A stretch of 64,000 nt of DNA. It comes from Chrysophaeum taylorii (Eukaryota > Sar > Pelagophyceae > Pelagomonadales > Pelagomonadaceae). The notes beneath the pieces were generated by a model, which searched no databases, had not been told where the DNA came from, and was given only the letters and a program-made list of their open reading frames with translations. Shown here piece by piece: positions 1 to 44,544 of this stretch. Position numbers and translations under genes: made by a program. Where the stretch lies: assembly GCA_029834535.1 (NCBI GenBank), contig JAQMWT010000011.1, positions 161,531 to 225,530 on the forward strand. Direction: 5' to 3'. Position 1 is the first letter of the stretch. Each line of letters starts with the position of its first letter.

Positions 1-959
1 TTGATGAAGCGATGTTCGGTAAGGATTTCACGGATAGCATGGGATTGGTCAAGAGTGAGGGTTCTCCGAGGGCGATCACGCGTAATGCGAAGACCAACGT
101 AAGAGGTGAGATCAAGTTCATTGACGTCAGTGAAAGCGCGGAAACGGAGGAAAAAGGCTTGGTAATGGCCAATGCAATGACGAGGGTGCGCCACAAGAAG
201 ATCATCAACGACGAGAACAAGGCGCGGAACGACAGTAGACTTAAGCATGGGTGTGTAGCTGCAAGTGTCACCAGATCCGCGGACGAAGCCACAGTCATTG
301 ACGAGAAAGCGTGCCAAATAAAGCCACCAATTACGACAAGCTTGTTTGCAACCATACCAAGAGCGACGGAGCGTGTAAATGATTTTGGAACCATCGGTGG
401 GTTGGCGAGGAGCATAGCCTTCGGGTGGCCAGACATAGATGTCTTCGTCAATGAGAGCTTGGATAAAAGCGGAGTTGACATCCAACTTATGCAAATCCCA
501 GTCATGAACAGCAACGCCAGACAGGGGCTTGTATGAAAGCAGAGATGACATCTACAGGACGGCACGTGTCGTGGTAAGCAATGCCGTGAACCTGCGTGTA
601 ACCGCGGACAACGAGGCGGGCCTTGTACGATTTGAAGCGGCCAGAGTCATACTTCTTGCGGAGGATCCACTTGAGGGTACAAATGTTGCCAGAAACATCA
701 TCATCATCGAAGGAAGGCGAATAACATCCCAGCAACCAAGCTGACCAAGAGAGCTGTATTCTTTAGCGATGGCTTGCAACCAGCCAGGACGCTCAGGATT
801 GGTCGGAGCTAAAGCTTCACGTAAATGGGTGGAAGTAATAGTAGTTTCGTCAAGGTAATACTGAGAGATTTCTTCGGAAGCAGAGTAATAAACGTGTGCA
901 TGGGGATCAACAAGGGTGTTAGCTAAACAAAGGGGAAGGAAGACATAATGAACTAACAA
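1..959 (-). pseudogene. Copia reverse transcriptase (RVT_2) fragment of element A
   Basis: Minus-strand frames at 959-552 and 735-502 give the N-terminal part of the copia reverse transcriptase, including the stretches LREALAPTNPERPGWLQAI, LKWILRKKYDSGRFKSYKA and RLVVRGYTQVHGI. They correspond to the intact frame at 6139-4421. Coding is lost by a frameshift near 700, where an extra ATCATCATC run sits. A second rearrangement lies near 535-600, where about 60 bp differ from element B. Further down (540-1) the sequence again follows element B closely. No functional protein is expected. Confidence 0.8.
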
Positions 960-2590
960 ACGAAAGCTAACAGAGAGTTACAAGAGGAAACAGAAGCGAC
1001 AGAGGAAACAGAATCAACATCGTGACAGGATGAAACAGAATCGACATTGCGTTGTTGACAAACGCCAGTATGAAAGTTTGTTTGTTGTTGTAATGCGCTT
1101 TGGTCGACTTTGCGCGGTCGGCTCCGTTTGGCGCGACTTTGTTTTGCACTTTCTGTTGTTTTCTCTCTTTGGTGCTCTTTTGCACTTTCTGTTGTTTTCT
1201 CTCGAGCTCGTAGAATGGTCGGTTCACGTGATGGGGTGATCAGTCCCAGTGAAACCGGCGCATTCTCATCAAACACAGGGGCAAGGGGGCAACACAAGGG
1301 GGCAACAGCGGAAGAACAGCGGAAGAACAGGTGACAATCGGGCAACAGCAGGAACAGGTGACAATGGGGCAACAATAGACGAGAGCTTGGAAGCGTGATT
1401 CGAGAAAGTCAGAACAACGTTGAAGTGCCTTCGGTGGTTGACATTGCAGGAAATCGGGTAAGTGAAACTGTCAGCAAAATCGAGGTCTGAAGAACAATAG
1501 CGACAAAAGTGCCTGGGATGACGTGCGTTAGACGATTGTTGCCACTGAGGATCGCAGCGGGGCAAAGATAGCGGAAACACAGGCTGGTACATATGATGGC
1601 GGTGTACCAGACGTCTGATGAGAACGTTGCCTTTGGGCAGATATGTTGTATGGTGACCAGGTTATGACGATGGTCGGAGGCGACTGAAGCAAAAACAGGC
1701 GTAAACAGGGTTGATGCGAACGTTGGGTGTTTGGTTGTTGTGGCGCGAGCAAGTTGCCATGGGCACGACCGCGTCCTGTACGCGAAGATGGAAGACTTCG
1801 GACGCGCCAGCGGTGTAAGGAACGAACACAGGTAGACCAGGCTGCTGTATGCCAGCCTGCTGTGACAGATAAGAAAGTGGCCCGTTTTCGCATTCGCAAG
1901 AACGAAGTTGCCATATGGGCCAACGTTGGAGGAGCAAGCGGCGAGCTTCGTTCGTCATACTCGAATAGACTGCGGTAGAAGTTGGCGACAGTGGCAAAAC
2001 AGTTGTGGCACGTAAGAACGTTGCAGATAGCTTGCAGATAGCGTCGCAGTGGCACGTAAGAACATTGCAGATAGCGTCGCGGGTGCTGAGCACGGAATTC
2101 ACGTCGATAGCAAAACCGAATTTTAAAGGTCAGAAAAGCGGCGAAAAAGTACGTGAAGGAGAACCACAAATCACACAGCAAAGAAGCGTCTGTCCAGGAT
2201 CCCGAAGATGAGCGATCCAACCACATAGGAAGCACGAAAACTGCGCACGCGAAAAATTGACAGGCACAGCTTAGTTGTGGCAGGTGAAATGCGCGATGGA
2301 ACGTGATTCGCTGGTTTTACCAAAACCGACAAGCACAACGAGGAGTGGATCAACGAATAGCTGAAAATGCACAACGGGGAGTGGAGCAACGAATAGGCGA
2401 AATACAGAACGAGGAGGGGAGCAACGACGAGGTGAAAAGACAGAACGAGGAGAGGAGCAACGACGAGGGAAAATACAGAACGAGGGGTGGAGCAACGAAT
2501 AGCGGAAAATACAGAACGAGGCGCCTGTGCAATGGGAGCTAAAAACAAAAACGAGGGGCTTCCGTGGGATGGGGTTGTTGATGTGCTTGC
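960..2590 (-). pseudogene. Decayed middle part of copia element A
   Basis: The frame at 1375-953 shares the stretch RKVDQ.ALQQ with the integrase-to-RT linker of element B (6903-6133), so 960-1400 is the same linker. From about 1400 to 2590 I see only short minus-strand frames with no recognisable integrase or protease. The stretch 2290-2530 is a degenerate tandem repeat built on units of the type cagaacgaggaggggagcaa. The integrase seems to be deleted or replaced here. Confidence 0.45.
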
Positions 2591-2591
2591 A

Positions 2592-3834
2592 TCAGACATT
2601 CGGCGGTACACACGCTGACTTGGAATTATCTTGATTGGCAGAAAGGTGCAAAGATGATAAGATAGAGAATCGGGAAGTGTATGTGAGACGGTGGGTGTGG
2701 CCGTTTAAGGCGGTGAAGGGGGGTGTAATAGGTGGTGGTATTAAGAAAAGCGGCGGAGTGGAACTAGAATCAGTCAAGGTGGGAGTAGGCATAGGAGCAG
2801 AAAAGGTAGTGTTAGTGGTGGTGGGTTTGGGTTGGTGTTGTTGGGTGTTTTTGGAGTCATTGGAAGTGTTGCGCTGTTGAGAAGAACGGCGATGGTGGTT
2901 AGGGCGTTGTCGTTGAATAGCTAGGAACTTTGAAACTTGCGGCAGTCCCCCTTGAAGTGATCCTTGCAGCCGCCAAAAGGACATCGGGTAGTGCGTCGGA
3001 ATCGAGTAGAGCCAGGTTGTTGGGAAAGGGGAGAGTCTAGGGTAGGTCAGTTGAAAGAGTCTGAAGTCGTGGCTGACGACGCGGCGGATAGCGCGGCGGA
3101 AGTGGTTGTGCATGCCATCGAAATTGGTTGTTGTTGAACTTCTCAAGGGTACAACCACATTCATCGGTACGAAACGCGAGACGATAAAACAAAGCCAGTA
3201 AGGCTTGAAGCACGATGCACGTAGTCAAATGCGAGGACACACTCGAGGGTGCGTCGGATCAGGTACAATGCCGAGCAACTTGAACTCCGGTGATAGGTAA
3301 AATGCCGAGCAACTTGAACGCCGGTGATAGGTACAATGCCGAGCAACTTGTATACTCCGATGATGAACTTGTTGAGGAAGTTCGCTACGCGATCCCCACG
3401 GCCCATGTAGACATCGGTAATGCGCTTGTAAAGCCGCGTGAAGTTCATATCACGGTTTTCACGGATATCCGCACGATCAGTATCATGCATTGGTAGCGCC
3501 ATGAAGAGTGCACTGTACCAGCGTTGCTGCTTGAGACCAAATTCTTCTTCAGAGCAGCCAGAGTCGGAAATGCTAGTCCAAATGTCAGTGGTCAAGATAA
3601 TGCGATCACCGGTGGAAATGATCATGTTTTCCAGGCGCCGGGTCCATTGGTGAAAAAGATGTCGCTCACCACTGAGGGCATCGAGTTTTGCGAAAGCTTG
3701 CTATCCTTAATTTCGATCGAGGACATGATAAACGATAACGAACCGAACACGTAGCAATGAACTGAAGCCGAGGAGGAGTCGCCGTTATCCGTGAAGTCAA
3801 GCAGTCGTTCGACCGCCGACGACACCTGGTACCA
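2592..3834 (-). pseudogene. Gag-like region of copia element A
   Basis: Three overlapping minus-strand frames (3975-3622, 3625-3161, 3164-2592) read in series as one broken gag-like protein. Visible stretches are IEIKDSKLSQNSMPSVVSD, TDIWTSISDSG and RLYKRITDVYMGRGDRVANF, followed by a Gln/Thr/Pro-rich tail (SQQRNTSNDSKNTQQHQPKP). Position directly downstream of the LTR and primer-binding site is what makes gag the likely identity; no zinc knuckle is visible. A 37-bp unit is repeated about three times at 3262-3350 and disrupts the frame. Confidence 0.4.
3822..3834 (-). other. Primer-binding-site-like sequence of element A
   Basis: Immediately after the LTR terminus (...TAACA) the minus strand reads TGGTACCAGGTGT. 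TGGTA.CAG is the usual start of a site complementary to the 3' end of initiator tRNA-Met used by copia elements. The matching position in element B reads TGGTAGCAGGTGT. Confidence 0.6.
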
Positions 3835-3930
3835 TGTTACGAATGGAATGAGGCGTGAGACTAGCGATAAGAGAAAGACGTATGGATACTGGATACGTGG
3901 TGTAGGGGTAAGTGTCATAGCTTCCTTACA
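3835..3930 (-). repeat. Short LTR (about 96 bp) of element A
   Basis: One of three copies of the same sequence (others 4148-4243 and 7414-7518). On the minus strand it begins TGTAAGGAAGCTATGACA and ends CATTCCATTCGTAACA, so it has the TG...CA ends of an LTR and abuts a primer-binding-site-like sequence. Confidence 0.7.
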
Positions 3931-4031
3931 AACAAACAAACAAACAAACAAACAAACAAACAAACAAACAAACAAACAAACAGACAGACTAACATCTGTC
4001 GATTAGTAGTAAGGATTTTTTTTTTTTAGGC

Positions 4032-4099
<68 letters not shown>

Positions 4100-4140
4100 A
4101 GTCTGTCTGTCTGTCTGTCTGTCTATCTGTCTCAAAAAGA
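3931..4140. repeat. Back-to-back microsatellites: (AAAC)n and (CTGT)n
   Basis: An (AAAC)n tract (about 3928-3980) and a (CTGT)n tract (about 4031-4132) are separated by about 50 bp. That spacer contains, on the minus strand, the motif ACTAATCGACAGATG, which recurs near 12960 and 13981. The tracts fill the gap between the LTRs of elements A and B. Confidence 0.9.
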
Positions 4141-4147
4141 AGAATCT

Positions 4148-4243
4148 TGTTGCGAATGGAATGAGGCGTTAGACTAGCGATAAGGGAAAGACGCATGGAT
4201 ACTGGATACGTGGTGCAGGCGTAAGTGTCATAGCTTCCTCACA
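4148..4243 (-). repeat. 3' LTR of element B (96 bp)
   Basis: Minus strand begins TGTGAGGAAGCTATGACA and ends CCATTCGCAACA. It is nearly identical to 3835-3930 and to 7414-7518. The purine-rich stretch beside it is on the plus strand, so I cannot identify a normal polypurine tract. Confidence 0.7.
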
Positions 4244-4420
4244 CAGGTGCTGGAAAAGAAAGAAAAGGAAAAAGGGGTAAGTGAGGTCTTCACACAGGTG
4301 CTGGAAAGAGAAAGAAAAGGAAAAAGGGGTAAGTGAGACGCTCACAGAGGAGAAGCTTTGAGGAAGACGTCATAGAGGCAGTGTGGCAAGAAAGAAAAAC
4401 AACAGAGATCAGGGCGAAGA

Positions 4421-6139
4421 TCACGAAGTGAGGTAAAGAGCACGAAGCCGGAGGAAGGAAGGAGCTTCCGTACTGCGGATGAAAATGTCGCTAAGATTGT
4501 GAAGGCGGGGTATGTGTTTGAGATCAATGATGTGGTTGCGCTGATATTCGGCGGTACTGTAAAAGCGAATGTCAATATGGCGGGTGCGCCGTGTGAGACA
4601 CTGGAGACGGACTTGGGTGACGGTGGTGCTATTATCAACATACATTGGGACCGTGTGACGAGGGAGATCAAAGTCATCAAAAATTTTGAGAAGCCAAGAG
4701 AGCTCAGCAGTAGCAGCGTAAAGAGCGAGCAATTCAGCTTCAAAAGAAGAGCGGGCAAGTAAGTACTGCGAGCGGGCGCAGTAGGCTATCATAGAGCCAG
4801 CAAGGAGAAAACAAAAACCAGTTGTAGAGTGGCGGTCATCAGGGTCGTCGGCCCAGCTGGAGTCGGAATAACCACAGAGATGAAGGGTAGAATCGCGACC
4901 GAGAACAAGGGCAAGATCGTGAGAGCCATTGAGATAACGCAGAGTGGGAGATAAAGCGTGCCAAGCGTGCCAGTGGGGTTTACCAGGATTGTGGGGAAAA
5001 CGCGCACACTGATTGACGGACCAAGTGATATCAGGGCGAGTCATGATGGAGATGAAGAGGACACAGCCAACAATACGGCGAAAGGGGATGCGTGCCATGA
5101 AAATGTGATCTGGAGAACCAGGAGTAGGACAATCAGCCGCAGAAAGATGAAGACCTTTGGGAGCGGGAGTGAGTTCGGGTTTACTGTTGATGAAGCGATG
5201 TTCGGTAAGGATTTCACGGATAGCATGGGATTGGTCAAGAGTGAGGGTTCTCCTAGGGCGATCACGCGTAATGCGAAGACCAACATAAGAGGTGAGATCA
5301 AGTTCATTGACGTCAGTGAAAGCGCGGAAACGGAGGAAAAAGGCTTGGTAATGGCTAATGCAATGACGAGGGTGCGCCACAAGAAGATCATCAACGACCA
5401 AAACGAGACGTAGCACGACGGTAGAATTGAGCACGAGCTTGTAGTGGCAAGTGTCACCAGATCCGCGGACGAAGCCACAATCATTGAGAAGGAAGCGTTC
5501 CAAATAAAGCCACCAATTGCGACAAGCTTGTTTGCAACCATACCAAGAGCGACGGAGTTTGTAAACGATCTTGGAACCATCGGTGGGTTGGCGAGGAGCA
5601 TAGCCTTCGGGTGGCCAGACATAGATGTCTTCGTCAATGGGAGCTTGAATAAAAGCGGGGCTGACATCGAACTTGTGCAAATCCCAGTCATGAACAGCGA
5701 CAAAGGTTAGAAAGACACGTATCGTGACGATGATAGCAACCGGTGAGTAGGTGTCATGATAATCAATGCCGTGAACCTGGGTGTAACCGCGGACGACGAG
5801 GCGAGCCTTGTACGATTTGAAGCGGCCAGAGTCATACGTCTCGCGGAGGATCCACTTGAGGGTACAAATGTTGCCAGAAAAAGTCGAAGGAAGGCGAACC
5901 ACATCCCAGCAACCAAGCTGACCAAGAGAGCTGTATTCATTAGCGATGGCTTGCAACCAGCCAGGACGCTCAGGATTGGTCGGAGCTAAAGCTTCACGTA
6001 AGTGGGTGGAAGTAATAGTAGTTTCGTCAAGGTCTGAATACTGAGACATTTCTTCGGAAGCAGAGTAATAAACGTGTGCATGGGGATCAACAAGGGTGTT
6101 AGCTAAACAAAGGGGAAGGAAGACATAATGAACTAACAA
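4421..6139 (-). CDS. Copia pol: reverse transcriptase and RNase H (element B)
   Basis: Open frame of 572 codons. The N-terminal half is an RVT_2-type reverse transcriptase: LKWILRETYDSGRFKSYKA, VVRGYTQVHGIDYHDTYSPV, FDVSPAFIQAPIDEDIYV. The catalytic box reads LVVDDLLV, so the usual YVDD is VVDD. The C-terminal half is a copia RNase H with CGYSDSSWADDPDDRHSTTG, SFEAELLALYAATAELSWL and the conserved RTRHIDIRFY. It should make cDNA from the element RNA inside virus-like particles. It is out of frame with the integrase frame ending at 6133, so a fused polyprotein would need a frameshift. It is the longest intact piece of this family in the window. Confidence 0.9.
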   Translation of the reverse strand: MLVHYVFLPLCLANTLVDPHAHVYYSASEEMSQYSDLDETTITSTHLREALAPTNPERPGWLQAIANEYSSLGQLGCWDVVRLPSTFSGNICTLKWILRETYDSGRFKSYKARLVVRGYTQVHGIDYHDTYSPVAIIVTIRVFLTFVAVHDWDLHKFDVSPAFIQAPIDEDIYVWPPEGYAPRQPTDGSKIVYKLRRSWYGCKQACRNWWLYLERFLLNDCGFVRGSGDTCHYKLVLNSTVVLRLVLVVDDLLVAHPRHCISHYQAFFLRFRAFTDVNELDLTSYVGLRITRDRPRRTLTLDQSHAIREILTEHRFINSKPELTPAPKGLHLSAADCPTPGSPDHIFMARIPFRRIVGCVLFISIMTRPDITWSVNQCARFPHNPGKPHWHAWHALSPTLRYLNGSHDLALVLGRDSTLHLCGYSDSSWADDPDDRHSTTGFCFLLAGSMIAYCARSQYLLARSSFEAELLALYAATAELSWLLKIFDDFDLPRHTVPMYVDNSTTVTQVRLQCLTRRTRHIDIRFYSTAEYQRNHIIDLKHIPRLHNLSDIFIRSTEAPSFLRLRALYLTS

Positions 6140-6903
6140 ACGAAAGCTAACAGAAGAGACATATAAAGAGTTACAGGAGGAAACAGAAGCGACAGAGGAA
6201 ACAGAATCAACATCGTGACAGGAGGAAACAGAATCGCCCGTAAAAAAGTTTTTGTTGGTTGTTGTAACGCGCGTTGGTCGACTTTGCGCGGTTGGCCCCG
6301 TCTGGCGCGACGTAATGGTGCACGTTTCGTATTGTCCGGTGACAGTGTATTCAGTGACGGTTGAGTTGTTTCAGGGGTGATCAGTCCCGATAAGGCCGGC
6401 TCCGGAGCATCAAAAACAGAAGACATGGGGGCCACGGCGGAAGATAAACGAGGGTCGTAATAAAATAAGTCAGGAAAACGAGAATCCACTAGAGGCGGAG
6501 GAAGGGGTTGAGAGGACAGTGACTTACGCAGAGCGAAATTTTCGTCAAAAACAACATCAATCGAGGTGTGGATGACAGGAGCTGTGGGGCGTTGAAGCAA
6601 TATGCGATATCCAGGGCCTGCAGAGGGATACCCAATGAAGATGCCGGTTATAGCTTTGGTAGGCCATTTGTTGCCAGTAAGAATTGCAGCGGGACAGCCC
6701 CAAACACGAAGAAAATCGACACGAGGGAGAGTTTCATGTAGCATTTCATATGGCGTCATATATCCAGGATTAGAGGCATTTGGCATACGCTCGGAGATGA
6801 AGCCAGCCGCTTCCATGGCCCAACGCCAAAAATCAGGTGGACGGTGCGCATGTACCAAAAGAGTGCGAGTAATATCAGCGGTTGCGCGATGAGAGCGTTC
6901 CAC
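6133..6903 (-). pseudogene. Copia integrase C-terminal part and linker (element B)
   Basis: The frame contains the region that follows the catalytic Glu in copia integrases: RTLLVHAHRPPDFWRWAMEA, NASNPGYMTPYEMLHE, FLRVWGCPAAIL and FIGYPSAGPGYRILL, then a low-complexity linker. It overlaps the next upstream frame (7373-6756) out of register, so the integrase is split in two. Family order and motifs make the assignment secure; activity is unlikely. Confidence 0.8.
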
Positions 6904-7404
6904 AACACCGGAAAAAGCGTGCGCCTGTGAAGTTTTTTGGACTGAGCTGCAGGAGCGCGTTTAAGCGCAATGTTGTTGCCCAGACAGAAGGTTTCGAATT
7001 GGCCCATAAGAGAGCGGTCACGATCGGTGTAGATGAGGGCAATGCGATATCCGAATGGGCGAACCACGGTAGACAGAAAAAGTTCGAGTTGACGAGCGTT
7101 CGTAAGGGCATCGTGTCGTGGAGCAAAGTAAGGCGTGCGGCGGCGCGTATGATCATCGACAAACGTGAGGATCGCGCGATCTTGATATATGAAGGATGGG
7201 ACGCCGGCAAACATGAGATCGGCGTGGATAATAAAAAAGGTAGGGCGCAACGGCACGTGGACGAGACAAAGGCTCGGAGGAAGGAGGCGAAGTGGAAGCG
7301 GAAGCATGAGCTTTACGTTGGCCAACATGCGCAGCATGCATTTTACCGAGAGCACAAGCAGGACAAAACCCATAACCCCGAGGTCGTTCGATCGAAACGA
7401 ACAC
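6756..7404 (-). pseudogene. Copia pre-integrase zinc motif and integrase core (element B)
   Basis: Two overlapping frames. 7404-7153 has CPACALGKMHAAHVGQRKAH, the pre-integrase zinc-binding type motif of copia. 7373-6756 has DLMFAGVPSF, FVDDHTRR and the second Asp region LIYTDRDRSLMGQFETFC, with an AAAQ-to-H stretch where the Glu should follow. The change of frame between them and the lost catalytic context mark it as broken. It lies directly behind the primer-binding site, so gag and protease are deleted. Confidence 0.7.
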
Positions 7405-7413
7405 CTGCTACCA
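7401..7413 (-). other. Primer-binding-site-like sequence of element B
   Basis: Directly after the LTR end (...CCTAACA) the minus strand reads TGGTAGCAGGTGT, which starts like the complement of the initiator tRNA-Met 3' end. It agrees with the site beside the LTR of element A. Confidence 0.6.
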
Positions 7414-7518
7414 TGTTAGGAATGGAATGAGGCGTTAGACTAGCGATAAGAGAAAGAGACGTATGGAGATACTGGATACGTGGTGGTGCAGGGGTAAGTA
7501 AGTCATAGCATCCTCACA
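7414..7518 (-). repeat. 5' LTR of element B (105 bp)
   Basis: Minus strand starts TGTGAGGATGCTATGACT and ends CCATTCCTAACA. It is about 9 bp longer than the other two copies because of small internal insertions (for example an added GTA and GA). A promoter in so short an LTR cannot be recognised by eye. Confidence 0.7.
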
Positions 7519-12954: not shown

Positions 12955-13977
12955 CCTAACTACTAATCGACAGATGTTTGTCTGTCTGTCTGTTTGTTTG
13001 TCTGTTTGTCCCTCGATTTAGGGTAAGGATCAGGTAGGCGCGAGAGTAAGGATCAGGTAGGCGCGAGAGCCAGACAGTGATCCTCCAAGCCGTCTACGGC
13101 GACCTCGCAGACTATTTCCACGACCCGCGGCGGCTCTTTTAGCCAGCGCGCCATTCTCACGCCCCGTCGAAACAATGTTGTCGATGCTGACAACGCGCGC
13201 ATGACCGCGGCCTTTTTTTCCCGGAGACGAGGCGTCGGAGTTCTTTTCGGCTGACTAGGCTGGGTCGGAAGACGACGCCTCGCTCTTTATAGTCGAGTTT
13301 TCAACTCCCTGACAACCAACGGCATGCTGACTTTGATCGCGAGGTTAAAGTCTTCGCAACCTCGACCCGTCGCACGGCCACTGCAACGGTACCAGATACA
13401 TGATCGATCGTGTCGTTGTCACCGAGGCTCCTCCAACCTGTATCCCGTAAGGCCCGCCTACGCCAAGCGATCAACAAGAGCCAGGGCCAGACGCCCCGCG
13501 AGGTCGGCGTCCTCTTGCCCAAGCCCGTCTTCTGTCACGTCCAGCTCTACGTGGCTCTCTGTCGATCGGCAACCCCGAGGATTTGCTCTTCTGGGTCGAC
13601 GACTCCACCCTACCCCACACGTGCTGCGCAATACCGATAAGCCCCCTCACGGCGTCTACACGCGCACTGTAGGTGAACTTACTGGGACCAGGTGAACTTA
13701 CTGGGGTTAGAGATTGGGACTAGGTGAGCTGAGTGCCCAGGTGAACTAACTGGGACCAGGTGAACTAACTGGGACCAGGTGAACTTGGTGCGGTGTTTAG
13801 AGTAAACTCAAGGGTTGGCGGCGCGTGCGGATCAAAGCAGCTTGGATTGGCGGGGGTGAGAGCGACGAGCTCAAAGGAGAGTGGGGTGAGTGGGTGTGAG
13901 CACGAGTGGGTTTACGCCGAACTTACTGGGGTAAGAGATTGGGAGTAGGTGAACTTACTGGCCTCCACTTGTTGGAT
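12955..13977 (+). repeat. Tandem duplication, copy 1 (about 1.02 kb)
   Basis: This unit is followed directly by a second copy (13978-14990). Both start ctaactactaatcgacag, then a (TGTC)-rich stretch, a doubled 24-bp motif around aaggatcaggtaggcgcg, the helicase remnant, and finally short repeats of aggtgaacttactggga type. Point differences and small indels separate the copies, so the duplication is not brand new. Confidence 0.9.
13079..13660 (+). pseudogene. Helitron-type PIF1 helicase remnant, copy 1
   Basis: Scattered over three frames are pieces of the C-terminal half of a PIF1-like helicase as found in Helitron Rep/Hel proteins. These are AVYGDLADYFHDP, then NSLTTNG, then an NGTRYMIDR-type motif near 13390-13415, then AINKSQGQT and VGVLLPKPVFCHVQLYVAL at 13465-13560. 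Several frameshifts separate them. The Rep nuclease and helicase N-terminus are absent. Confidence 0.75.
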
Positions 13978-14990
13978 CCTAACTACTAATCGACAGATGT
14001 TTGTTTGTCTGGTTGTCTGTCCCTCGATTTAGGGTAAGGATCAGGTAGGCGCGAGAGTAAGGATCAGGTAGGCGCGAGAGCCAGACAGTGACCCTCCAAG
14101 CCGTCTACGGCGACCTCGCAGACTATTTCCACGAGCCGCGGCGGCTCTTTCGGCGCGCCATTCTCACGCCCCGTCGAAACGATGTTGTCGATGCTGACAA
14201 CGCGCGCATGACCGCGGCCTTTTTTTCCCGAAGACGAGGCGTCGGAGTTCTTTTCGGCCGACTAGGTTGGGTCGGAAGCCGACGCCTCGCTCTTTACAGT
14301 CGAGTTTTGAACTCCCTGACAACCAACGGCATGTTGACTTTGATCGCGAGCTTAAAGTCTTCGCAACCTCGACCCGTCTCGCACGGCCACTGCAACGGTA
14401 CCAGATACATGATCGATCGTGTCGTTGTCACCGAGGCTCCTCCAACCTGTATCCCTTAAGGCCCGCCTACGCCAAACGATCAACAAGAGCCAGGACCAGA
14501 CGCCCCGCGAGGTCGGCGTCCTCTTGCCCACAAGCCCGTCTTCTGCCACGTCCAGCTCTACGTGGCTCTCTGTCGATCGGCATCCCCGAGGATATACTCA
14601 TCTGGGTCGACGACTCCACCCTACCCCACACGTGCTGCGCAATACCGATAAGCCCCCTTTCCGGCGTCTACACGCGCACTGTAGGTGAACTTACTGGGAC
14701 CAGGTGTACTTACTGGGGTTTGAGATTGGGACTAGGTGAGCTGAGTGCCCAGGTGAACAAACTGGGACCAGGTGAACTAACTGGGACCAGGTGAATTTAC
14801 TGGGGTGTTTAGAGTAAACTCAAGGGTTGGCGGCGCGTGCGGATCAAAGCAGCTTGGATTGGCGGGGGTGAGAGCGACGAGCTCAAAGGAGAGTGGGGTG
14901 AGTGGGTGTGAGCACGAGTGGGTTTGCGCCGAACTTACTGGGGTTAGAGATTGGGACTAGGTGAACTTACTGGCCTGCACTTGTACACAC
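13978..14990 (+). repeat. Tandem duplication, copy 2
   Basis: Second copy of the unit at 12955-13977, ending about 14990 just before the aminotransferase gene at 15004. The unit end (ggtgaacttactggcctgca) is shared with copy 1. Confidence 0.9.
14088..14670 (+). pseudogene. Helitron-type PIF1 helicase remnant, copy 2
   Basis: It contains LQAVYGDLADYFHEPRRLF, ILTPRRNDVVDADNARM, and HCNGTRYMIDRVVV in one frame, then TINKSQDQT in another. These match PIF1-type helicase motifs of Helitrons. Copy 2 keeps the first block in frame better than copy 1 but has lost the QLYVAL block to frameshifts. Confidence 0.75.
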
Positions 14991-20603: not shown

Positions 20604-20675
20604 GGGGAACTAGCTCAGGGGCAGAGCGATCGCTTCGCATGCGATAGGTCAGGAGTTCGAATCTCCTGTTCTCCA
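20604..20675 (+). tRNA. tRNA-Ala (CGC)
   Basis: 72 nt without encoded CCA. Acceptor arm GGGGAAC pairs with GTTCTCC, D arm starts AGCTC, the anticodon stem ATCGC/GCGAT closes a TTCGCAT loop, so the anticodon is CGC. The T loop TTCGAAT is normal. The same tRNA occurs three times on the minus strand at 31.6-32.3 kb. Confidence 0.95.
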
Positions 20676-22242: not shown

Positions 22243-22611
22243 TTGCGCTCTCAACCTCAGTATGGCGGCACAGAAAAACCTTCCCGACCCCCGGGTGACA
22301 AAGGGGGTACTCACCGACTCGTCCTAGACCTCACTGAACGAGGAAATCACGGACTCGGGGTCGGATATGCTCGCCACACACCTTGCTCACGCTCACCAAG
22401 CCTCTCAACAAGATGGAGAGATGGTATATGATAGCAAGAATGCTACAAGAATATAGCAAGAATGCTTCTCGCAAAAGAGAGGTATGATGTCACTAAGAAG
22501 ATAGGGAAAGGTGTCCCGTTGAACGGGTATCAGCCTCGAGAGAGAGAGGGTAAGCCTTAGCGATCAGGAGTTGCCGCCACAGGACTCCCCTGGTGAGAAC
22601 ACGAGCTGCCC
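22241..22611. other. Flank of the gypsy-type element
   Basis: No gene. This could contain the 3' untranslated part or an LTR of the element at 22612-27903, but I find no matching copy at the other end. It contains a short direct repeat around atagcaagaatgct. Confidence 0.4.
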
Positions 22612-24483
22612 TCAGCGAGTCCGGCGAGAAGCACGAGCCTTGGCTGAATGAGCGTCTCGGGAACGAATCTTCTTGTAGACACGTTCAACGACAGGTTCAG
22701 GAACGCGTCCACCACGCAAAGTGAACTTAGGAATCAACACATCGATCTCATGCGGGGCGAAGTCGGTGACACAAGGAGTGGTACTGTTGTTGACCTTGGT
22801 CTTGTCGGTGAAACTGCGACCGTCCACGTCCTTGTATTCCGGCTTAAGCTTGCGAGTAGAGAGATGTGAAGTAGGCTTGTAATAAGAAACCTTGTCATGG
22901 GTACCGAGATCAGCATAGAAATGCAGAGCGACTCGATCATTCACAAAATCATAGGATTCATAAACTTCAGCGACGTAAATCTTCTTTCGCCAATCGGACC
23001 GTTTATTATCCAGAATCCGAAAGACAACGAACTTACCATGCTTGTAATCATCCCGAAAGGTCTCCTTGGGCTTGGGCACAGCTCGATCGACCACTGGAGA
23101 AACCATCACAGGGGTGATCTGGCTAACATGAACACAACGGCGTTCGGGAGGAGAATCAAGAGACTCAGTCCTGTAAGTTACCGGGGACAAAATATCGAAT
23201 GGACCGCGCCATTCCGGTCGAAGCTTGTTCTGAAGAAAAGGGATGTAGAGCAGAACATGTGAACCTTCTTCATCCTCCACATCAACATGGTCCGCATTAT
23301 AGGCGAGACGTTGTTTACGAAGAGCCTTCTCACGAGCTTCGTTCACCGTAGCGGTATAGAACTTCAGCCTCTCGCGAGTCTCTGCCACAACATCGGAGCG
23401 AGTTTTCGGCAGGCGGCGGACATCAAGATCCATGATCGTGTAATCGGTTGGCAATAAAGGCTGCCGGTTAAGACGAAGCATGAAAGGTGAGATCTGAGTC
23501 CCCGGAATAAATTTGCGATTGTAACAGAAAGCAATGTACTCCGCGAATTCGGGCCATTCCGTGATCTTGCGGTTTTGAAGGCACGCACGGAGGAAAGCCT
23601 TGATAAAGCGGTTGACCCTTTCCGCAGGATTAGCCTGAGCATGATACGGAATCGTGGTACTATACCGAACATTGAAAAGATGACAAAACTCTTCCATCAA
23701 CTTGTTGACGAACTCTTTCCCATTGTCGGTACGAATCCTCTGAGGTAGATAACCTTTGAGTAATATATTCGCGACAAAAGACTCGAGGATTGACTCAGCA
23801 GTCTTATGGTGTAGTACGTCAAGAATCAAGAAATGAGAAAATGGATCAAAAAACACGATGAGATATGTCTCGGGACCAGCACTGGGCAAAGGTCCAAACA
23901 AATCCATACAAAGGACGACACAATCACCATCATACACCGGTTGCTGAAGCAGACCTGCTCTCTTTGGTTCAGGCGTACGAGCTTTCTTGCACACTATGCA
24001 ACCAGCAATGTAAGCACCCACCTCATTAGACATGTGGGGCCACCAAAAACGTTCAAGTATCGACTGCACTGTACTTTGACGACCCATATGGCCACCATTG
24101 AGAGGTGTGTCATAGTACAATCGGATGATGCGCGTCCGTGAAGTTCGGGGTGCGACTATCATCGGGTGCAAGTCGGGTGCGGCACGGTAGAGAACTCCTT
24201 TCACCACTTGATAGCGATAATTGGCTCCGTACCGACGAAGAGAATGGCCCTGAGCCATGCGATAACGAATGTCCTCGCAAGTAGCATCAGTGATCTGCTC
24301 TTTGGCTATCTCTTCCAAAGTCAAATTATCCGGAATCTTGTCGACGTACTCTTGGTAATCATCGGCATCACGGAAAATACTAGGCTGGGTCTGCGGTCGT
24401 TGCTTCTGACGTTGTTTCGTAGCATGAGACGTGACCAATTGCATCGGATCATCGAGGTCTTCTTTCTGTTCCTCCACAGGCAA
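22612..24483 (-). pseudogene. Gypsy-type integrase with C-terminal extension
   Basis: Open for about 620 codons. The zinc region keeps GGHMGRQST...C162-x2-C165 (GCIVCKKA), but the first His of the usual HHCC motif is replaced by Tyr. The catalytic core has D194 (MDLFGPLP), D253 (RTDNGKEF) and E288 (NPAERVNRF), so the DD(35)E triad is complete. After the core, ERRCVHVSQITPV is the normal gypsy GPY/F-type end. About 190 extra residues follow, including GKFVVFRILDNKRSDWRKKI and HLSTRKLKPEYKD, which do not look like a standard chromodomain. The frame joins the RNase H frame only by a frameshift near 24500. Confidence 0.85.
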
Positions 24484-25481
24484 CTCAGTCGTAACAAACG
24501 ACAGAATGACATGGCACCCAGGTAAAGGTACTCTAGATACGCGTGGTTCAAGGGCTCACCAAACTCGTCCGTCTCGATGACATGATCTATAGGATTGCGA
24601 GAGAGACAGTCAGGGATGCTCATTCCCGGCGACTTCCCTGGCTTGTAACCCAATTCAGGATCAAAATTGGCGAGCCGTATCGCCCATCGAGTCAACTGCC
24701 CAGACGAGTGCTTCGCCTTTCGTAAAAACGTCAAGTTGCGATGATCTGTTTCAAGGATCGTCTTGTGACCTTCAATATAAGAGCGGGAATGCTCAAGAGA
24801 AAGAATAACTGCCAGTAGCTCTAGCCGGCGAGGCTCATAGTTCCGCATCTCTTTCGGCACAGCTCGGCTCCAATACTCAATTACTCGTTCCTCTCGTGTC
24901 ACCTTGCCGGTTTCGTCCTTGATTTCTACGAGCTGAAAAAGATACGCACCCAGACCATCCTTGGAAGCATCCGAGCGGATCTGAAAAGGAAGATCGTAGT
25001 CAGGATGATAAACTCCACGAGAATCCACCAAAGCTTCGATGATCGTGTCCCATGCCTTTTGGCACTCAGGCGTCCACTCAAACTTAACGCCTTCAAGACA
25101 CAATCGCCTAAGCGGCTCCACAATCTTCGAATAATTCTTCACATATCGGCGGCAATAGTTGCTCATACCAATGAAAGATCGAATCTGGGTCTTCGGGGAC
25201 GTATTGGGCAACGTACCGGGAATCGGCATCTGCTGCAACGCTTCTAACGTCTTGGGATTCGGCTTCAAGCCTTCCGGAGTCGAAATATGTCCCAGAAACT
25301 CGATTTCATCCTTGAGGAGGTGGAACTTCGAAGTTCGTCCACTATATCCTCGCTGTGCTAAATGGCACAATACTTCAATCAAAACTTGTAAATGTCGATG
25401 GAGTTCATCCGATCCCATCATAATATCGTCGACAAATGCGACCAAGTCCTTATACATCCATGTGGACAAATCGCTAGCCAT
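24321..25481 (-). pseudogene. Gypsy-type reverse transcriptase (C-terminal half) and RNase H
   Basis: Starts just after an in-frame TAG. LVAFVDDIMMGS is the RT catalytic box (FVDD). RGYSGRTSKFHLLKDEIEFL, HISTPEGLKPNP and FIGMSNYCRRYVKNYSKI are classic gypsy RT thumb segments. RNase H follows: IRSDASKDGLGAYLFQ, EPRRLELLAVILSLEHSRSY and ETDHRNLTFL. The last 60 codons of this frame are out of register; the true continuation is the 24483 frame. Confidence 0.88.
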
Positions 25482-26483
25482 CTACTTACAAAAGAGAGCT
25501 CCTGCTGTTTTTACTCCTAGAGGCAAGCGCAAGAAACTATGGGCTCCAAGTGGACTAACCATCGTAACAGCGTCCTGAGCAGCGGCGTCCAAACGTAAAT
25601 TATGATGACCCCATCGAATATCAATGCACGTCCGCCAACGGCGCATGGCAAGAAAAGCCAAAGCATCATCTTGACGAATATTCGGCCAACTGTCATTGAC
25701 CAGCTGATCGTTGAGCTGACGCAAGTTAACTGCAGCACGAAAAGCATTCGACGTCCCGGCCTCGGCTCCCTTCTTGGGCAGCATCAGTACAGGGAATCCC
25801 CACGGAGAGTTCGCCGGTCGGATGACTCCATCGCGACACCACTCAGTGATCTGCTTTCTGAGACACACGAGCTTTGCTGGCATCAACCTATAAGGCGTCA
25901 TCTTGATCGGTCGTGGGTTTGCGTCTATAAAGCGTAGAGAAACCGGTGGCGAGTCCACGGGTCTCATAATCGGATTAAAGAAAGCCCACGCGTATTGCAC
26001 GCAATGGCTCAGCATCATCTTCGCATCATCATCCAGATGCGGGTTGTCGGGAATTCCTAGATCTCGAACAGCCTTTTCAACTTCTTCCTTCGTCGGAATT
26101 ACGACTTTCATCGCATCATTGTCCTTGACGTGCTCGGGAATCTGCGGTAACGGTACACCGTCCGCATCGCGCGGCGCATCCTTCCATGGCACATCGAACT
26201 TTTCTTCGTATTTGAACCTCGCCTCAGGGTGGCTCTTATTGATCTTTTCACCTTTGACGCGCACATTCGGCTCGCTCCTTACTTTCGGCTCCTGTTCAGG
26301 TTCAGGATCCGGCGGAACGTCCACTTTTGATTGTCGTTGTCGGGGGGGGGGGTGCAGAAAAAGCATGAGCCGTCCCCAGCGCATCTGTTGGAAGCGGAAG
26401 CATAGGAACTTCTGGTGGTTCCCATTTAGTGGGATCCTGGAGATCATCCTTTGACACCCACTTAACAAGACGAGTACGCGCAT
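25482..26483 (-). pseudogene. Gypsy-type reverse transcriptase, N-terminal half
   Basis: Contains the RT fingers and palm: KQITEWCRDGVIRPANSPWG, FPVLMLPKKG, AAVNLRQLNDQLVNDSWP, CIDIRWGHHNLRLDAAAQD and FLRLPLGVKTAGALF. It then hits TAG where a Trp codon is likely, and the same frame reopens at 25481. The first Asp box reads CIDIRWGHH rather than the common DL.SGYHQI. The upstream 70 codons are Pro/Glu-rich (PPDPEPEQEP). Its overlap with the methyltransferase frame is at 26302-26483. Confidence 0.88.
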
Positions 26484-27903
26484 TTAACAGCGGAATCTCT
26501 ACGTGACGAAAGGTGGTGTCGAAGATTCGTAAATACTGCTCAAAGGATCGATCTGTCGGGCTCAACGCGGTCGGCAGGACTTCACCACTTTGGCGGAAAC
26601 CTCTGGTCACGGAGTTGTGCAGATCGAGTGCTAAAATCGCAAGAGTATCTGGAGGGACGACAGATGCTAAATGTTTGAACGAATCTGTCTTAGACAAGCT
26701 AGCCCAATCATGATCCACCGGCATCGTGAGCAACTCGGCCGTCATCTCGAGAGTCAAAGGCTGGGTGTCCGAGCGATGCGGTCCCAAACGAAGAGGAATT
26801 CGCGTAACGGTGTAAGCCGCATCTGTTGCTTCTGGGGACGAGCCAAGATTATTCAGCTGGAGAAGGTGGCATTCATGAGCATACCCTAAAGCTGCAGCAA
26901 ATTTTTGTTGCATGTTCACATATGTCTTCGGAGCCTCTTGCAAGTGCAGTGGGTGACTGGAAACCAACAATCGCACGCGAGAGCTCATCAGAGTGGGTGT
27001 GATATCATGAAAATTGACGACGTACACGTAAGGGTGTAAGCGCGCTATATACGAAATAATGGACGCCTCCTGTTCAATCTGCCACATCATGAAGCCAGCC
27101 ATTTTGCACAGCTTCATCGTCCAGTTAGTGGCCGTAACACCCTTGCCAACATCTCTGGATGTCAAGTTGCAGAGTGCTGAATGAACGCAGGGCGGAGACG
27201 CTATACACATCGACGATGACCATTCCGCTTCAGGCAAATAAGCCTTGATCAACCGGAGGATCGAGTCATATCGTCCACAGAGCGTTTGCTGGACCACAGG
27301 TATCTTCGGAAAATTCTTCTGATGAACCTTGTTGGCAGCTGTTGACGAGTCAAAAGCAAGGACGACTCGAAACGACGTCCCGCACAACTCGTTCGCTCGT
27401 TGCAGTCCTAATGTACTTCCTCCGGCGCCGCTGAAGAGCATCACAACCTTGCGATACGTGATCGGCACCCAGTGGACCTCTTCAAACCTTCGGCGAATCT
27501 CGCATTCTGTAACTTCTCGGCATTTCTTTTCCTCCTCGTCAGTTCGTCGGTCGAAATCGTCGTTACCGAGCGATTCTTGACGAGAATTCTTCTTCTTATC
27601 GGCAGAAGGAGGCGCCTTCTGCACTGAGCTCAAAAGGATCGGTTCGGGAGCCGCATTGCCATGAGTAAGATGGCTTGCGACCGAAACAGTGAATGATACG
27701 TTAGCCTTGTTAGATTCGGCTTCACCATCCTTCGTTAAATCGTCGACCGTCTCAGCATTCAGCTCGTCATCAAAACGAACAATATCGCCCAAAGCAAGGA
27801 CTTCACCTTGAGTAATCACGGTCGGCACATCCTGGGTAGAGGATATCGCCACTCGAGCTGCGAACTTATCATGATCCTCAAGAGAAGAACCTGCTAGACT
27901 CAC
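26302..27903 (-). CDS. C5-cytosine DNA methyltransferase-like domain protein (retroelement-borne)
   Basis: 533 open codons; there is no ATG before residue 155, so the true N-terminus lies upstream or is reached by a frameshift. Residues 150-430 follow the order of cytosine-5 methyltransferases. Motif I is VVMLFSGAGGSTLGL (153-167). The motif II region is VVLAFDSSTAANKVHQKNFP (180-199). Motif IV is IASPPCVHSAL with Cys239 as candidate catalytic Cys. A motif IX-like stretch is PLTLEMTAELLTMP (382-395) and a motif X-like one is HLASVVPPDTLAILAL (411-426). Motif VI is altered (PYVYVVNFHD; the usual ENV Glu is missing) and motif VIII (QxRxR) is not clear. The enzyme family methylates cytosine in DNA; with these changes activity is uncertain. 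Confidence 0.8.
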   Translation of the reverse strand: MSLAGSSLEDHDKFAARVAISSTQDVPTVITQGEVLALGDIVRFDDELNAETVDDLTKDGEAESNKANVSFTVSVASHLTHGNAAPEPILLSSVQKAPPSADKKKNSRQESLGNDDFDRRTDEEEKKCREVTECEIRRRFEEVHWVPITYRKVVMLFSGAGGSTLGLQRANELCGTSFRVVLAFDSSTAANKVHQKNFPKIPVVQQTLCGRYDSILRLIKAYLPEAEWSSSMCIASPPCVHSALCNLTSRDVGKGVTATNWTMKLCKMAGFMMWQIEQEASIISYIARLHPYVYVVNFHDITPTLMSSRVRLLVSSHPLHLQEAPKTYVNMQQKFAAALGYAHECHLLQLNNLGSSPEATDAAYTVTRIPLRLGPHRSDTQPLTLEMTAELLTMPVDHDWASLSKTDSFKHLASVVPPDTLAILALDLHNSVTRGFRQSGEVLPTALSPTDRSFEQYLRIFDTTFRHVEIPLLNARTRLVKWVSKDDLQDPTKWEPPEVPMLPLPTDALGTAHAFSAPPPPTTTIKSGRSAGS

Positions 27904-29058
27904 AGGGTGAGGCGGGATGGTTCTTCAGTTCTGTTACCACTGCTCCTCAGAATCCGCTGGAGTGTTGCTCGAACTGTTATGCGACGGCGGTTATGATGAC
28001 GAATCGGCATCGGAGGGGGGGGCGTCGCCTCATCACCGCCATTTCAAAGCCCGGTGGGCAAAGCGTCGCACGGACTTCACGGTGGTTCCGAGGACCCAGA
28101 TGCTGGTCGCTCGACGGCGCAAAGAGAGATCGCGCCTCCAGGCGAGAAGCGCGTACGAGATTTCCGCCCAACGCGCGGCTGGCGAGATCGAGGCGATTGC
28201 CAGTTGGTTCGGAGACGTGAATCGAGCGCTCGCTACTCCGCCACGGACTTTGTGACTTGAACCTCGTCGACCTGCAGCTACGTAATCGCTGCTTCAACTG
28301 TAGTCGGGGCTTTACGGGTTAGACGAGCTCTGGACACAGCTGTTTCGCTGTGGCGGCTAAGTAAGGCGTCGTCGTCGTGGCTTCACGAAGCTACCGATCG
28401 AGGGCAAGACGGCCGGCGGCGCGATCCAAATCGAGACCGTAGTGACAGCCCTCGCTAGAAATCCTAGTCGACTTAAAAAAAACCGTTGCGCATCCGCCAC
28501 GAAGGAGATCTCAAGGCCGAACGCCGCAGGGCCGGCTGTCGATGCCCAAATACCTCTTTTACAAATACCCTTGCCATGGTAAGCGGCGTAGCGGCGCGTG
28601 AATTTGTATGTGTCGCGTGGGCGGCGGTTCTTGGGGGCTGTCCGAATTAAGGGTGCGGTGCGCTATTCTGGCCGAGCGCCGGCGAATTTCGCAACAAGTC
28701 CCACGAGAAAAAATACGGCCCATGCCACGGGCAGTATTCTTCTCGTGGTAGTTGTTGGGGAAATTCCCCGGCGCTGGCCTCTTATTCGCGTGCGCGTGGC
28801 GTGACGGCGCCCTCGACGCAGGACCTCGAACCAACTGTGTGGTTGGATGCGTTCAAGGACCTCAATCTCAAGTTCAAAGCGCACTCCAAGTCATCCCTTT
28901 CTGCGTTAAGCCCGGTCGCAGAATTTTGGGCTAGAGGCATGATCATTTGATGCAGGTTGCGCGTCGGGCGTACTATAGCAGGGCCTTCGTGGCCAACCAC
29001 GTCAAGATAATAATGGAGAACATCAATGTAACTGGACCGCACTGCGGGCCGCCGCCGA
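27904..29058. other. No firm gene; possible fragments
   Basis: A plus-strand frame at 27917-28255 has a helical, basic stretch (TQMLVARRRKERSRLQARSA) and could be a gene fragment. On the minus strand this is where the gag of the gypsy-type element would lie, but I see no zinc knuckle or protease. 28260-29058 shows nothing recognisable. Confidence 0.4.
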
Positions 29059-31650: not shown

Positions 31651-31722
31651 TGGAGAACAGGAGATTCGAACTCCTGACCTATCGCATGCGAAGCGATCGC
31701 TCTACCCCTGAGCTAGTTCCCC
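31651..31722 (-). tRNA. tRNA-Ala (CGC)
   Basis: Same 72-nt tRNA as at 20604, with one change in the D loop (GGGGTAG instead of GGGGCAG). Anticodon CGC; acceptor, D, anticodon and T arms are intact. Confidence 0.93.
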
Positions 31723-31836: not shown

Positions 31837-31908
31837 TGGAGAACAGGAGATTCGAACTCCTGACCTATCGCATGCGAAGCGATCGCTCTACCCCTGAGCT
31901 AGTTCCCC
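31837..31908 (-). tRNA. tRNA-Ala (CGC)
   Basis: Identical to the copy at 31651-31722, including the T in the D loop; only 114 bp separate them. The flanks differ, so this is not a simple tandem copy of a larger block. Confidence 0.93.
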
Positions 31909-32253: not shown

Positions 32254-32325
32254 TGGAGAACAGGAGATTCGAACTCCTGACCTATCGCATGCGAAGCGAT
32301 CGCTCTGCCCCTGAGCTAGTTCCCC
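32254..32325 (-). tRNA. tRNA-Ala (CGC)
   Basis: Full 72-nt copy with GGGGCAG in the D loop, like the plus-strand copy at 20604. Anticodon CGC. Confidence 0.93.
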
Positions 32326-43270: not shown

Positions 43271-44544
43271 ACGAGCTCGCTGCTACAAACATTCTTGGAC
43301 ACTCCCATAAAAACACACATCATTGAACTCGGCTTCAAATATCGCACCGAATCGTTCTCGAAAGGTAAGAAGTACCCCATACTCAGCTCGGCAAGGATTC
43401 CCTTGTCTTCGTCGTTCGCATCATACCGCTCCGTATCGTCCCCGTTGTCGTACGTGACGGCGAACTTGTTTCTGGCGTAGGTGACTGTTCCAGGAACGTA
43501 GTGTTTAGGCTGCGCAGCGGGATATGGCACATCCGAAGCCATCACCCGGACTGATTTGACACTCCTTCCGCGCGCCGTAAGCATATTGAGGGTGGTGGTG
43601 AGCTCGGCGCGCGCACGGTCCCACGCTTCTTTGTCTGTTGGCCACCAGGGAGGAAACGAGCTTGTAGACGACTCTTTCTGCTGCTTGTTTGGGGGCTCGG
43701 TCGACGCGGGAGGCTCGGTAGACGCGGGAGGCTCGGTCGACGCGGGAGGCTCGGTATACGCGGGAGGCTCGGTAGGCTCGGTATACGCGGGAGACGCGGG
43801 AGGCTCGGTAGGCTCGGTAGACGCGGGAGGCTCGGTAGACGCGGGAGGCTCGGTAGGCTCGGGAGGCTCGGTTGCTTTGCGGCCTCCTTTCCTCCGCTTT
43901 TTACTGGCGACCCGGGCTGCAGTTCCTTCTGGGTCCAACCCGGCGAACGTCTTGGCCATTTCTTTTCGTGCTCGCTTCCGGTCCTTCTTTGACCCCGACC
44001 CCGTATTCTTCCGCAGCGAGGATTCTTGGCGTTGGTCATTCTTTGGCCTGCCTGTCCGTCGGGGCCCGATCGCGGATGGCAGCCAAGGCTCAAACTCCTC
44101 ACCAGCTTCTTTGCATTCGGCTTCAATTTCTCTTTGCGCCGATTCAATTTCCGTTGCGTTGAGAATCGGAAACACCCCCCCGACCCGATATTGATTTTCC
44201 CAACGCTGCGTCGTGGTCCAAAGTGGATAGAGATCCTCAGCATGCTCACCGCGAGCTATCTGAGCTCCAATCATGCAAACGCACGGCAAGCGAGAGAACG
44301 CGTAGTTGCCACAGCTACAGGAAAGTACGTCGAGTTGCTCCGAATCTTCAAAATTCACGTATCCCTTCTGCCCGATAACAACGACGGACGTAAGTTGCTG
44401 ATTGTTGTCACCTTTGACATACACAAAGAACGTCCCCTTATTGGCCCCAGCGCCGCCGCCGTAAGGCTGAACTCTTGTTATCCGGGTCTTGCTTTTTGCA
44501 ACCTTGACTTGGGCATCATTATTGTAGTTGGGCCTATGGTTCAC
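43267..44544 (-). CDS. MULE transposase C-terminal part with SWIM zinc finger and TEPPAS repeats
   Basis: 425 open codons. Near the start, DVLSCSCGNYAFSRLPCVCM fits a SWIM-type zinc finger (CxC...CxC/H), typical of MULE transposases. A basic stretch (KKDRKRARKEMAKTFAGLDP) and a run of TEPPAS/TEPPAY repeats (43690-43880) follow. Then comes a small domain PGTVTYARNKFAVTYDNGDD that resembles a Tudor/Agenet-like fold by pattern. It is likely the same polypeptide as the upstream transposase frames, joined by splicing or broken by a frameshift near 44550-44740. Confidence 0.65.
   Translation of the reverse strand: MNHRPNYNNDAQVKVAKSKTRITRVQPYGGGAGANKGTFFVYVKGDNNQQLTSVVVIGQKGYVNFEDSEQLDVLSCSCGNYAFSRLPCVCMIGAQIARGEHAEDLYPLWTTTQRWENQYRVGGVFPILNATEIESAQREIEAECKEAGEEFEPWLPSAIGPRRTGRPKNDQRQESSLRKNTGSGSKKDRKRARKEMAKTFAGLDPEGTAARVASKKRRKGGRKATEPPEPTEPPASTEPPASTEPTEPPASPAYTEPTEPPAYTEPPASTEPPASTEPPASTEPPNKQQKESSTSSFPPWWPTDKEAWDRARAELTTTLNMLTARGRSVKSVRVMASDVPYPAAQPKHYVPGTVTYARNKFAVTYDNGDDTERYDANDEDKGILAELSMGYFLPFENDSVRYLKPSSMMCVFMGVSKNVCSSELV

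Follow-up and report, generated by a model that had tools for sequence, protein, structure and literature searches.

A divergent cytosine-5 methyltransferase-like domain in the polyprotein of a high-copy Ty3/gypsy retrotransposon family of Chrysophaeum taylorii

We analyzed a 64,000-nucleotide stretch of the pelagophyte Chrysophaeum taylorii (the window; contig JAQMWT010000011.1 of assembly GCA_029834535.1, positions 161,531 to 225,530), in which sequence and profile comparisons confirmed that the minus-strand frame at 26302–27924 carries a divergent cytosine-5 methyltransferase (C5-MTase) domain. The frame belongs to a decayed copy, truncated at its 5' end, of an abundant Ty3/gypsy long terminal repeat (LTR) retrotransposon, termed family A, whose polyprotein has the order gag-like region, protease-like region, C5-MTase-like domain, reverse transcriptase (RT), RNase H and integrase. 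With confidence somewhat better than even, we favour the reading that family A captured this domain, that purifying selection has kept it, and that it would act, presumably by catalysis and to the element's benefit, on the element's own nucleic acid. An earlier note on this DNA had placed such a domain directly before gypsy RT, RNase H and integrase on the same strand, an arrangement borne out by the PF00145 match and by the RT/RNase H and integrase regions that follow it.

A methyltransferase-like domain in a Ty3/gypsy polyprotein

The earlier note had proposed comparing the domain with PF00145, and the excised window domain indeed matched at 25.4 bits, above the curated cutoff of 22 bits. 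Searched with the whole 540-amino-acid frame, the same family scored 23.4 bits (E 4.7e-5), covering residues 159–211 only. We aligned 25 of the 32 places carrying the domain, omitting five with in-frame stops (L041, L042, L052, L055 and L063), L036 as a near-duplicate of L035, and L038; each of the 25 copies matched PF00145 individually at E≤0.1, the best at 1.3e-6. Two longer domain-bearing frames fell below the cutoff (19.5 and 19.2 bits), so that for individual copies the match is weak. Nine other C5-MTases, of which eight came from a phage collection and one was a host DNMT2, were combined into a reference profile; the family-A profile matched it with a probability of 93% and E 2.6e-7, spanning motif I to the PPC cysteine. 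A hidden Markov model of these nine references yielded a median of 16.6 bits over the 25 copies and at most 0.9 bits for shuffled controls (n=200, 107 reported), with a second weak segment (0.8–5 bits in the three alignments printed) falling on the motif IX–X stretch. Likewise, two PHROG DNA methyltransferase families matched the window frame at 1.7e-8 and 6.3e-8. Weak support also came from Foldseek with a low-confidence fold model of the domain.

The domain and its motifs are located in the window as follows.

26302–27924, minus strand: stop-to-stop frame of 540 amino acids with the C5-MTase-like domain
26515–27537, minus strand: C5-MTase-like domain, residues 130–470 of that frame (PF00145, 25.4 bits, cutoff 22; hhalign probability 93% to other C5-MTases)
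27403–27438, minus strand: motif I, LFSGAGGSTLGL; F, G, G and G invariant in 25/25 aligned copies
27187–27195, minus strand: motif IV PPC with Cys246, the candidate nucleophile; kept in 25/25 aligned copies
27073–27075, minus strand: Glu284 at Cys+38, candidate ENV glutamate by spacing (EQE here); 24/25 copies
26971–26979, minus strand: RVR, putatively motif VIII-like; its two arginines in 25/25 and 24/25 copies
26650–26757, minus strand: weak, putative motif IX–X-like stretch (PLTLEMTAELLTMP...ASVVPP); the usual motif IX glutamate is methionine in 25/25 copies

The F, G, G and G residues of the FxGxGG motif as well as the motif IV cysteine were invariant across all 25 aligned copies. The PPC cysteine described in the earlier note was thus retained, its number changing from Cys239 to Cys246 of the stop-to-stop frame. 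That note had further considered the ENV glutamate lost and motif VIII unclear, and both views had to be revised: 24 of the 25 copies exhibit a glutamate 38 residues past Cys246, where ENV reads EQE with neither the asparagine nor the valine kept, and the RxR of motif VIII is kept (25/25 and 24/25), with the glutamine of QxRxR replaced by serine or cysteine. The Cys-to-ENV distance is 37–44 residues in eight of the nine references and 65 in one, and the Glu-to-Arg distance is 33–55 in the references versus 32 in family A. Judged by this spacing, Glu284 is probably the ENV-position glutamate. For the motif IX- and X-like stretches, which the note had also named, the weak second segment of the reference model falls on the same location; the usual motif IX glutamate is replaced by methionine there.

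The window copy comprises four minus-strand frames in succession (26302–27924, 540 amino acids; 25482–26483; 24321–25481; 22612–24555). The second yielded no Pfam match on its own, the third matched RT_RNaseH, RT_RNaseH_2 and, below the cutoff, RVT_1, and the fourth matched integrase H2C2 and rve. Homology to longer copies extends from about 22250 up to 27888–27890, and at the 3' end the homology to the copy on contig C5 (the C5 copy) extends 38 bases into the LTR of the latter. This copy is dead, as the earlier note had suspected, because of an in-frame TAG and two frame changes, in addition to its 5' truncation.

25164–25883, minus strand: RT region, protein 94% identical to the C5 copy; probable bounds from alignment to that copy
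24654–25163, minus strand: RNase H region (PF17917, 3.6e-26; PF17919, 9.9e-23); probable bounds
22624–24531, minus strand: integrase homology span with H2C2 zinc finger, rve core and C-terminal part (PF17921, 3.3e-15; PF00665, 1.6e-12)
22250–22429, minus strand: probable 3' LTR remnant with putative bounds, 94.5% identical to the sequence upstream of the long frame of the C235 copy
27888–27890, no strand: 5' truncation point, where homology to longer copies ends; 5' LTR, gag-like and protease-like regions missing
25482–25484, minus strand: in-frame TAG in the RT region; two frame changes besides, at about 26340 and about 24525

The 540-amino-acid frame was searched against the assembly, which has 697 contigs and 70.8 Mb. 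Of 1233 candidates 80 were scored, and all of these 80 matched at 70–100% identity; an open frame of more than 1000 codons was listed for 30 of these 80, a few of them reading through a stop. A degenerate 27-nucleotide motif-IV pattern had 301 exact sites and none read backwards, and a motif-I pattern had 275 exact sites against 2 for the control, duplicated contigs included in both cases. Contigs C10 and C297 show family-A, PF17919 and further methyltransferase-like (family B, see below) matches at nearly the same positions and look like duplicate (haplotype) contigs. Since some contigs look duplicated in this manner, the true insertions are fewer than the site counts.

The linkage of the domain to RT, raised in the earlier note as a point to check in other genomic copies, was evident at 28 of the 30 fetched places (window included), where RT lies downstream on the same strand; for the other two, only 146 and 394 nucleotides were fetched downstream. 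Neither of the outcomes that the earlier note had named as refuting its reading, lack of a significant PF00145 match or of a second copy linked to RT, was observed. A protease-like region lies upstream of the domain in 29 of the 30, the exception being the window copy; the gag-like and protease-like regions were named by eye and have no Pfam match. The idea that the domain sits in place of gag and protease therefore fell: longer copies have both regions upstream, with the domain between the protease-like region and RT, and their seeming replacement in the window copy is owed to its truncation at about 27888, i.e. to damage rather than design. Among 49 Ty3-type RNase H places (PF17919) checked on contigs up to C206, of 150 scored, 23 were preceded at 2.1–2.7 kb by the family-A motif, in the same orientation.

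The C5 copy (L061+L062, C5:520043-530330) is bounded by two LTRs of 336 bp, 100% identical to each other and with TG...CA ends, and contains a single frame of 3067 codons with the Pfam order RVT_1, RT_RNaseH, H2C2, rve (P0002). Two bases past its 5' LTR begins TGGTGGAGGAATACG... (TGGTGG...), resembling a tRNA primer site. We did not find a primer tRNA gene for this site with a search pattern that had one ill-fitting end base, and no target-site duplication was seen at this copy. Repeats of at least 60 bp in this stretch were limited to the two terminal LTRs and one short local repeat that lies beyond the element. The C311 copy, whose LTR pieces are at 94.5%, and the C235 copy have a gag-like core in common (48% identity), which is lacking in the C5 copy; if its identical LTRs reflect a recent transposition, the latter may depend on Gag supplied by other copies. 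Adjoining a copy of the window's subfamily, a third, more distant family-A-like methyltransferase piece was observed at L047:4219-4569, 56% identical over domain residues 43–162 and with two stops.

Constraint, base composition and rival explanations

Family A divides into subfamily A1, that of the window copy (21 copies), and A2, represented by the C5 copy. The presence of the domain in both places its capture before the A1/A2 split. Over the 341-codon domain, nonsynonymous divergence (dN) between A1 copies and the C5 copy ranged from 0.117 to 0.150 and synonymous divergence (dS) was about 2 or more, with one value not computable. As dS was mostly saturated, we gave little weight to the dN/dS ratios of regions. 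Within A1, the median dN/dS over 210 pairs was 0.22, which would fit a subfamily with many dead copies. For the window and C235 copies compared with the C5 copy, dN was 0.101 and 0.087 in motifs I–VIII, 0.099 and 0.115 in the integrase core, 0.036 and 0.029 in RT, and 0.303 and 0.294 in the C part of the protease-like region. Constraint on motifs I–VIII matches that on the integrase core and is weaker over the C-terminal part of the domain. The lowest dN among six blocks of the domain, 0.041, was found for codons 244–300, which hold both the cysteine and the glutamate.

The observed/expected CpG ratio was 1.09–1.34 in the four family-A bodies measured, 0.82 in the C5 LTR, 1.01 in a family-B copy and 1.25 in the whole window. 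The ratios of the B copy (1.01) and the window copy (1.09) were lower than those of two stretches of host sequence in the window (both 1.29), and the B copy had TpG and CpA ratios of 1.14 and 1.13. The earlier note had suggested that the domain could methylate element DNA; in family A, the CpG depletion that such self-methylation might leave was not seen. C/T change between A1 copies amounted to 0.050 at CG, 0.050 at CC, 0.050 at CT and 0.025 at CA; between B copies it was likewise not highest at CG (CG 0.136, CT 0.178, CC 0.119, CA 0.083). The family-A domain may instead methylate RNA, another sequence context or short-lived cDNA. In the mechanism we propose, the domain, released by the protease or still joined to RT, would travel in the particle and could there methylate cytosines in nucleic acid of the element itself, either cDNA or RNA and primer tRNA, which may help new copies to survive or be tolerated.

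Several observations weigh against such a captured, catalytically active domain. The sequence match outside motifs I–IV is faint, the AlphaFold model of the family-A domain is poor (mean predicted local distance difference test score, pLDDT, 36), and its Foldseek list is led by C5-MTases together with GAR transformylases, which have an unrelated fold. Because ENV has become EQE, the QxRxR glutamine serine or cysteine and the motif IX glutamate methionine, the domain's catalytic activity may have been lost or changed. The segment from the target recognition domain (TRD) to motif X evolved more loosely than the integrase core or RT, with dN of 0.196 and 0.189 for the window and C235 copies against the C5 copy. 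The lack of a CG excess of C/T change among A1 copies leaves no sign of CG self-methylation. Finally, the family-A motif was not nearby at 26 of the 49 PF17919 places checked, some of which may be truncated or diverged copies; this 23 to 26 split indicates a domain fixed in one large Ty3 group and seemingly absent from others, and thus not needed by every such Ty3 element.

The replaced ENV, QxRxR and motif IX residues, the weak Pfam score and the missing CpG signature would all suit a C5-MTase relative without catalysis, retained for nucleic acid binding or for a structural role in the particle or in RT. We regard this as a serious but improbable alternative, given that the cysteine is kept in 25/25 copies and the Cys+38 glutamate in 24/25, that RxR and GxGG are likewise kept, and that the block of lowest dN (0.041, codons 244–300) is the one holding the cysteine and the glutamate. 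Partly overlapping with the explanation we favour, the domain might be a DNMT2-type RNA cytosine-5 methylase acting on element RNA or primer tRNA, as several comparisons suggest: the window frame had three sequence matches in the PDB, all of them DNMT2/tRNA-C38 enzymes and all weak (E 0.1–0.28), two of the three such matches of the family-A profile were of this kind (0.22 and 0.24, the remaining one being the unrelated GGA1), the low-confidence model had two Foldseek matches at E≤0.001, both human DNMT2, and the host DNMT2 ranked top of ten references with the family-A profile (4.5 bits; nine reported). The lack of a CpG signature would fit as well. Yet all of these scores are weak, the sequence ones stem mostly from motifs I–III and the rest of the domain has diverged, so that we consider a DNMT2-type enzyme unlikely.

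Two further explanations bear on the identity and the linkage of the domain. That a single copy lies barely above the Pfam cutoff, and two longer frames below it, could hint at a chance resemblance or an unrelated domain; PF00145 at E≤0.1 in 25/25 aligned copies, the profile match at E 2.6e-7, shuffled controls scoring no more than 0.9 bits where the copies had a median of 16.6, and the PHROG matches at 1.7e-8 and 6.3e-8 make this very improbable. Taken alone, the fragmentary window copy might even be a host methyltransferase pseudogene merely beside a retrotransposon, a notion hardly worth entertaining as it is refuted by linkage: domain and RT share one open frame in the C5 copy, 28 of 30 fetched places are linked, and the 2.1–2.7 kb spacing is fixed in 23 of the 49 places checked.

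A different methyltransferase-like domain in Ty1/copia elements

In the PF00145 search of the assembly, 57 places were listed among the best candidates scored, and the window's own place was not among them. L001 is a host-type DNMT2 (E 3.9e-39 to human DNMT2) and L002 a host-type, DNMT5-like gene (E 3e-143 to PDB 7r76, deposited under the name Rad8), an entry which we take to be a DNMT5. Together, these two genes make a native cytosine methylation system likely. Of the remaining 55 places, the 28 that were fetched (L003–L030) all matched one other domain, termed family B.

Family B is a Ty1/copia LTR element whose C5-MTase-like domain differs from that of family A. The copy on contig C96 (L017/L065; L065:2460-10000 + L066:1-2084; C96:60459-70083) exhibits, in this order, a protease-like stretch recognized by eye, the methyltransferase-like domain, a weak rve match (E 0.0048, below the cutoff) and RVT_2 (7e-40), and is flanked by LTRs at 60459–60666 and 69888–70083 with 89% identity. 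An alignment of 14 of the 28 places, with mostly truncated or broken ones omitted, showed PC of the PCQ motif, ENV and one arginine to be invariant; motif I is degenerate, and at least one omitted copy (L007) reads ENA. The family-B profile matched the nine reference C5-MTases with a probability of 96% (E 4.6e-9), and dN/dS over motifs II–VIII was 0.07–0.16 in the 13 pairs printed. No DNMT3 entry was found among the 13 PDB sequence matches of this profile. The structural model is poor (pLDDT 36), and its weak Foldseek matches include DNMT3A/B entries, a list of no use for family B. The family-B motif pattern had 154 assembly sites, a number not usable as a copy count because the pattern also matches the family-A antisense strand (28 of the first 100 listed, by eye). 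Ty1/copia sequence was also observed at window positions 1–7460, with RVT_2 at 4424–6370 and direct repeats separated by about 5.18 kb; no family-B methyltransferase was found there.

Comparison of the family-A and family-B profiles gave no similarity (0.4%), so that a shared capture is not supported, both domains being too diverged for proof. From these profiles we read A and B as two separate captures, although a single old capture, diverged beyond recognition, could also underlie both. It is conceivable, if rather doubtful, that Ty3/gypsy and Ty1/copia elements each captured a different non-Dnmt3 C5-MTase into the same slot just after the protease, that selection kept both, and that the family-A domain acts on RNA or cDNA in the particle. 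LTR elements would in that case have converged repeatedly on the capture of methylases as a strategy. Protein-database searches at the cutoffs used, the first covering proteins of 297–945 amino acids only, returned no relative of either domain, and none of the 20 and 12 pattern matches in viral contigs was a relative of family A or B.

Relation to known retroelements and further features of the window

Retroelements bearing methyltransferases are already known, and families A and B are a further variant. The passages of the 2018 study by de Mendoza (PMC5890265) available to us describe KnitGypsy-Dnmt3 of Klebsormidium nitens as well as SymbioDIRS-Dnmt3 and SymbioLINE-Dnmt of Symbiodinium. Similar to family A, KnitGypsy-Dnmt3 has a C5-MTase domain in a Ty3/gypsy Pol frame, several copies and purifying selection; compared by description only, it differs in being of Dnmt3 type with DIRS-like repeats, whereas the family-A C5 copy has a simple LTR pair (PMC5890265). 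No DNMT3 entry was present among the PDB sequence matches of the family-A profile at E≤5. The family-A domain is likely an independent capture, as the earlier note had thought possible, with KnitGypsy compared by description only. The Symbiodinium elements resemble family A as retrotransposon-borne DNMTs in large numbers; they are DIRS and LINE elements with a tyrosine recombinase or endonuclease, in contrast to the LTR elements with rve-type integrase described here (PMC5890265). In the same passages, SymbioDIRS domains are reported to methylate CG in yeast, CG depletion is reported for the Symbiodinium LINE-Dnmts, and the role of retroelement-borne DNMTs is left unclear (PMC5890265).

A 2025 article in Mol Biol Evol (PMC12344493) mentions, in the passage available, DNMT3 in 'LTR Copia and DIRS', citing the 2018 study, which describes Gypsy, so that the meaning is unclear; such elements would resemble family B in the naming of Copia, and the 13 PDB sequence matches of family B were devoid of DNMT3. 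DAM- and DCM-bearing Ty3/Gypsy and DIRS elements are described for many lineages, including stramenopiles, red and green algae and charophytes (PMC6338049); compared by description with family A, the passages at hand do not specify in which of them a C5 (DCM) domain forms part of an LTR element. In the available parts of PMC6338049, PMC9998398, PMC12477816 and PMC12344493, we found no family that could be equated with A or B.

That retroelements carry the kind of enzyme used to silence them poses a puzzle, here presented by two families with methyltransferase-like domains, of which one has hundreds of copies; the compact genome also has its own DNMT2 and a DNMT5-like gene. The C5 copy with its identical LTRs, alongside Ty3-type elements without the motif, makes a direct test of the benefit of the domain possible. 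As family A lies barely at the PF00145 cutoff and the window's place is absent from the 57 listed, Pfam-based counts may miss such domains, and methyltransferase captures across eukaryotes may accordingly be undercounted.

Beyond the retroelements, the window contains four nearly identical tRNA-Ala(CGC) genes at 20604–20675 on the plus strand and at 31651–31722, 31837–31908 and 32254–32325 on the minus strand. A tandem duplication of about 1 kb with 95% identity spans 12987–14984, and a dense array of 9- and 18-bp repeats at 43655–43908 overlaps open frames.

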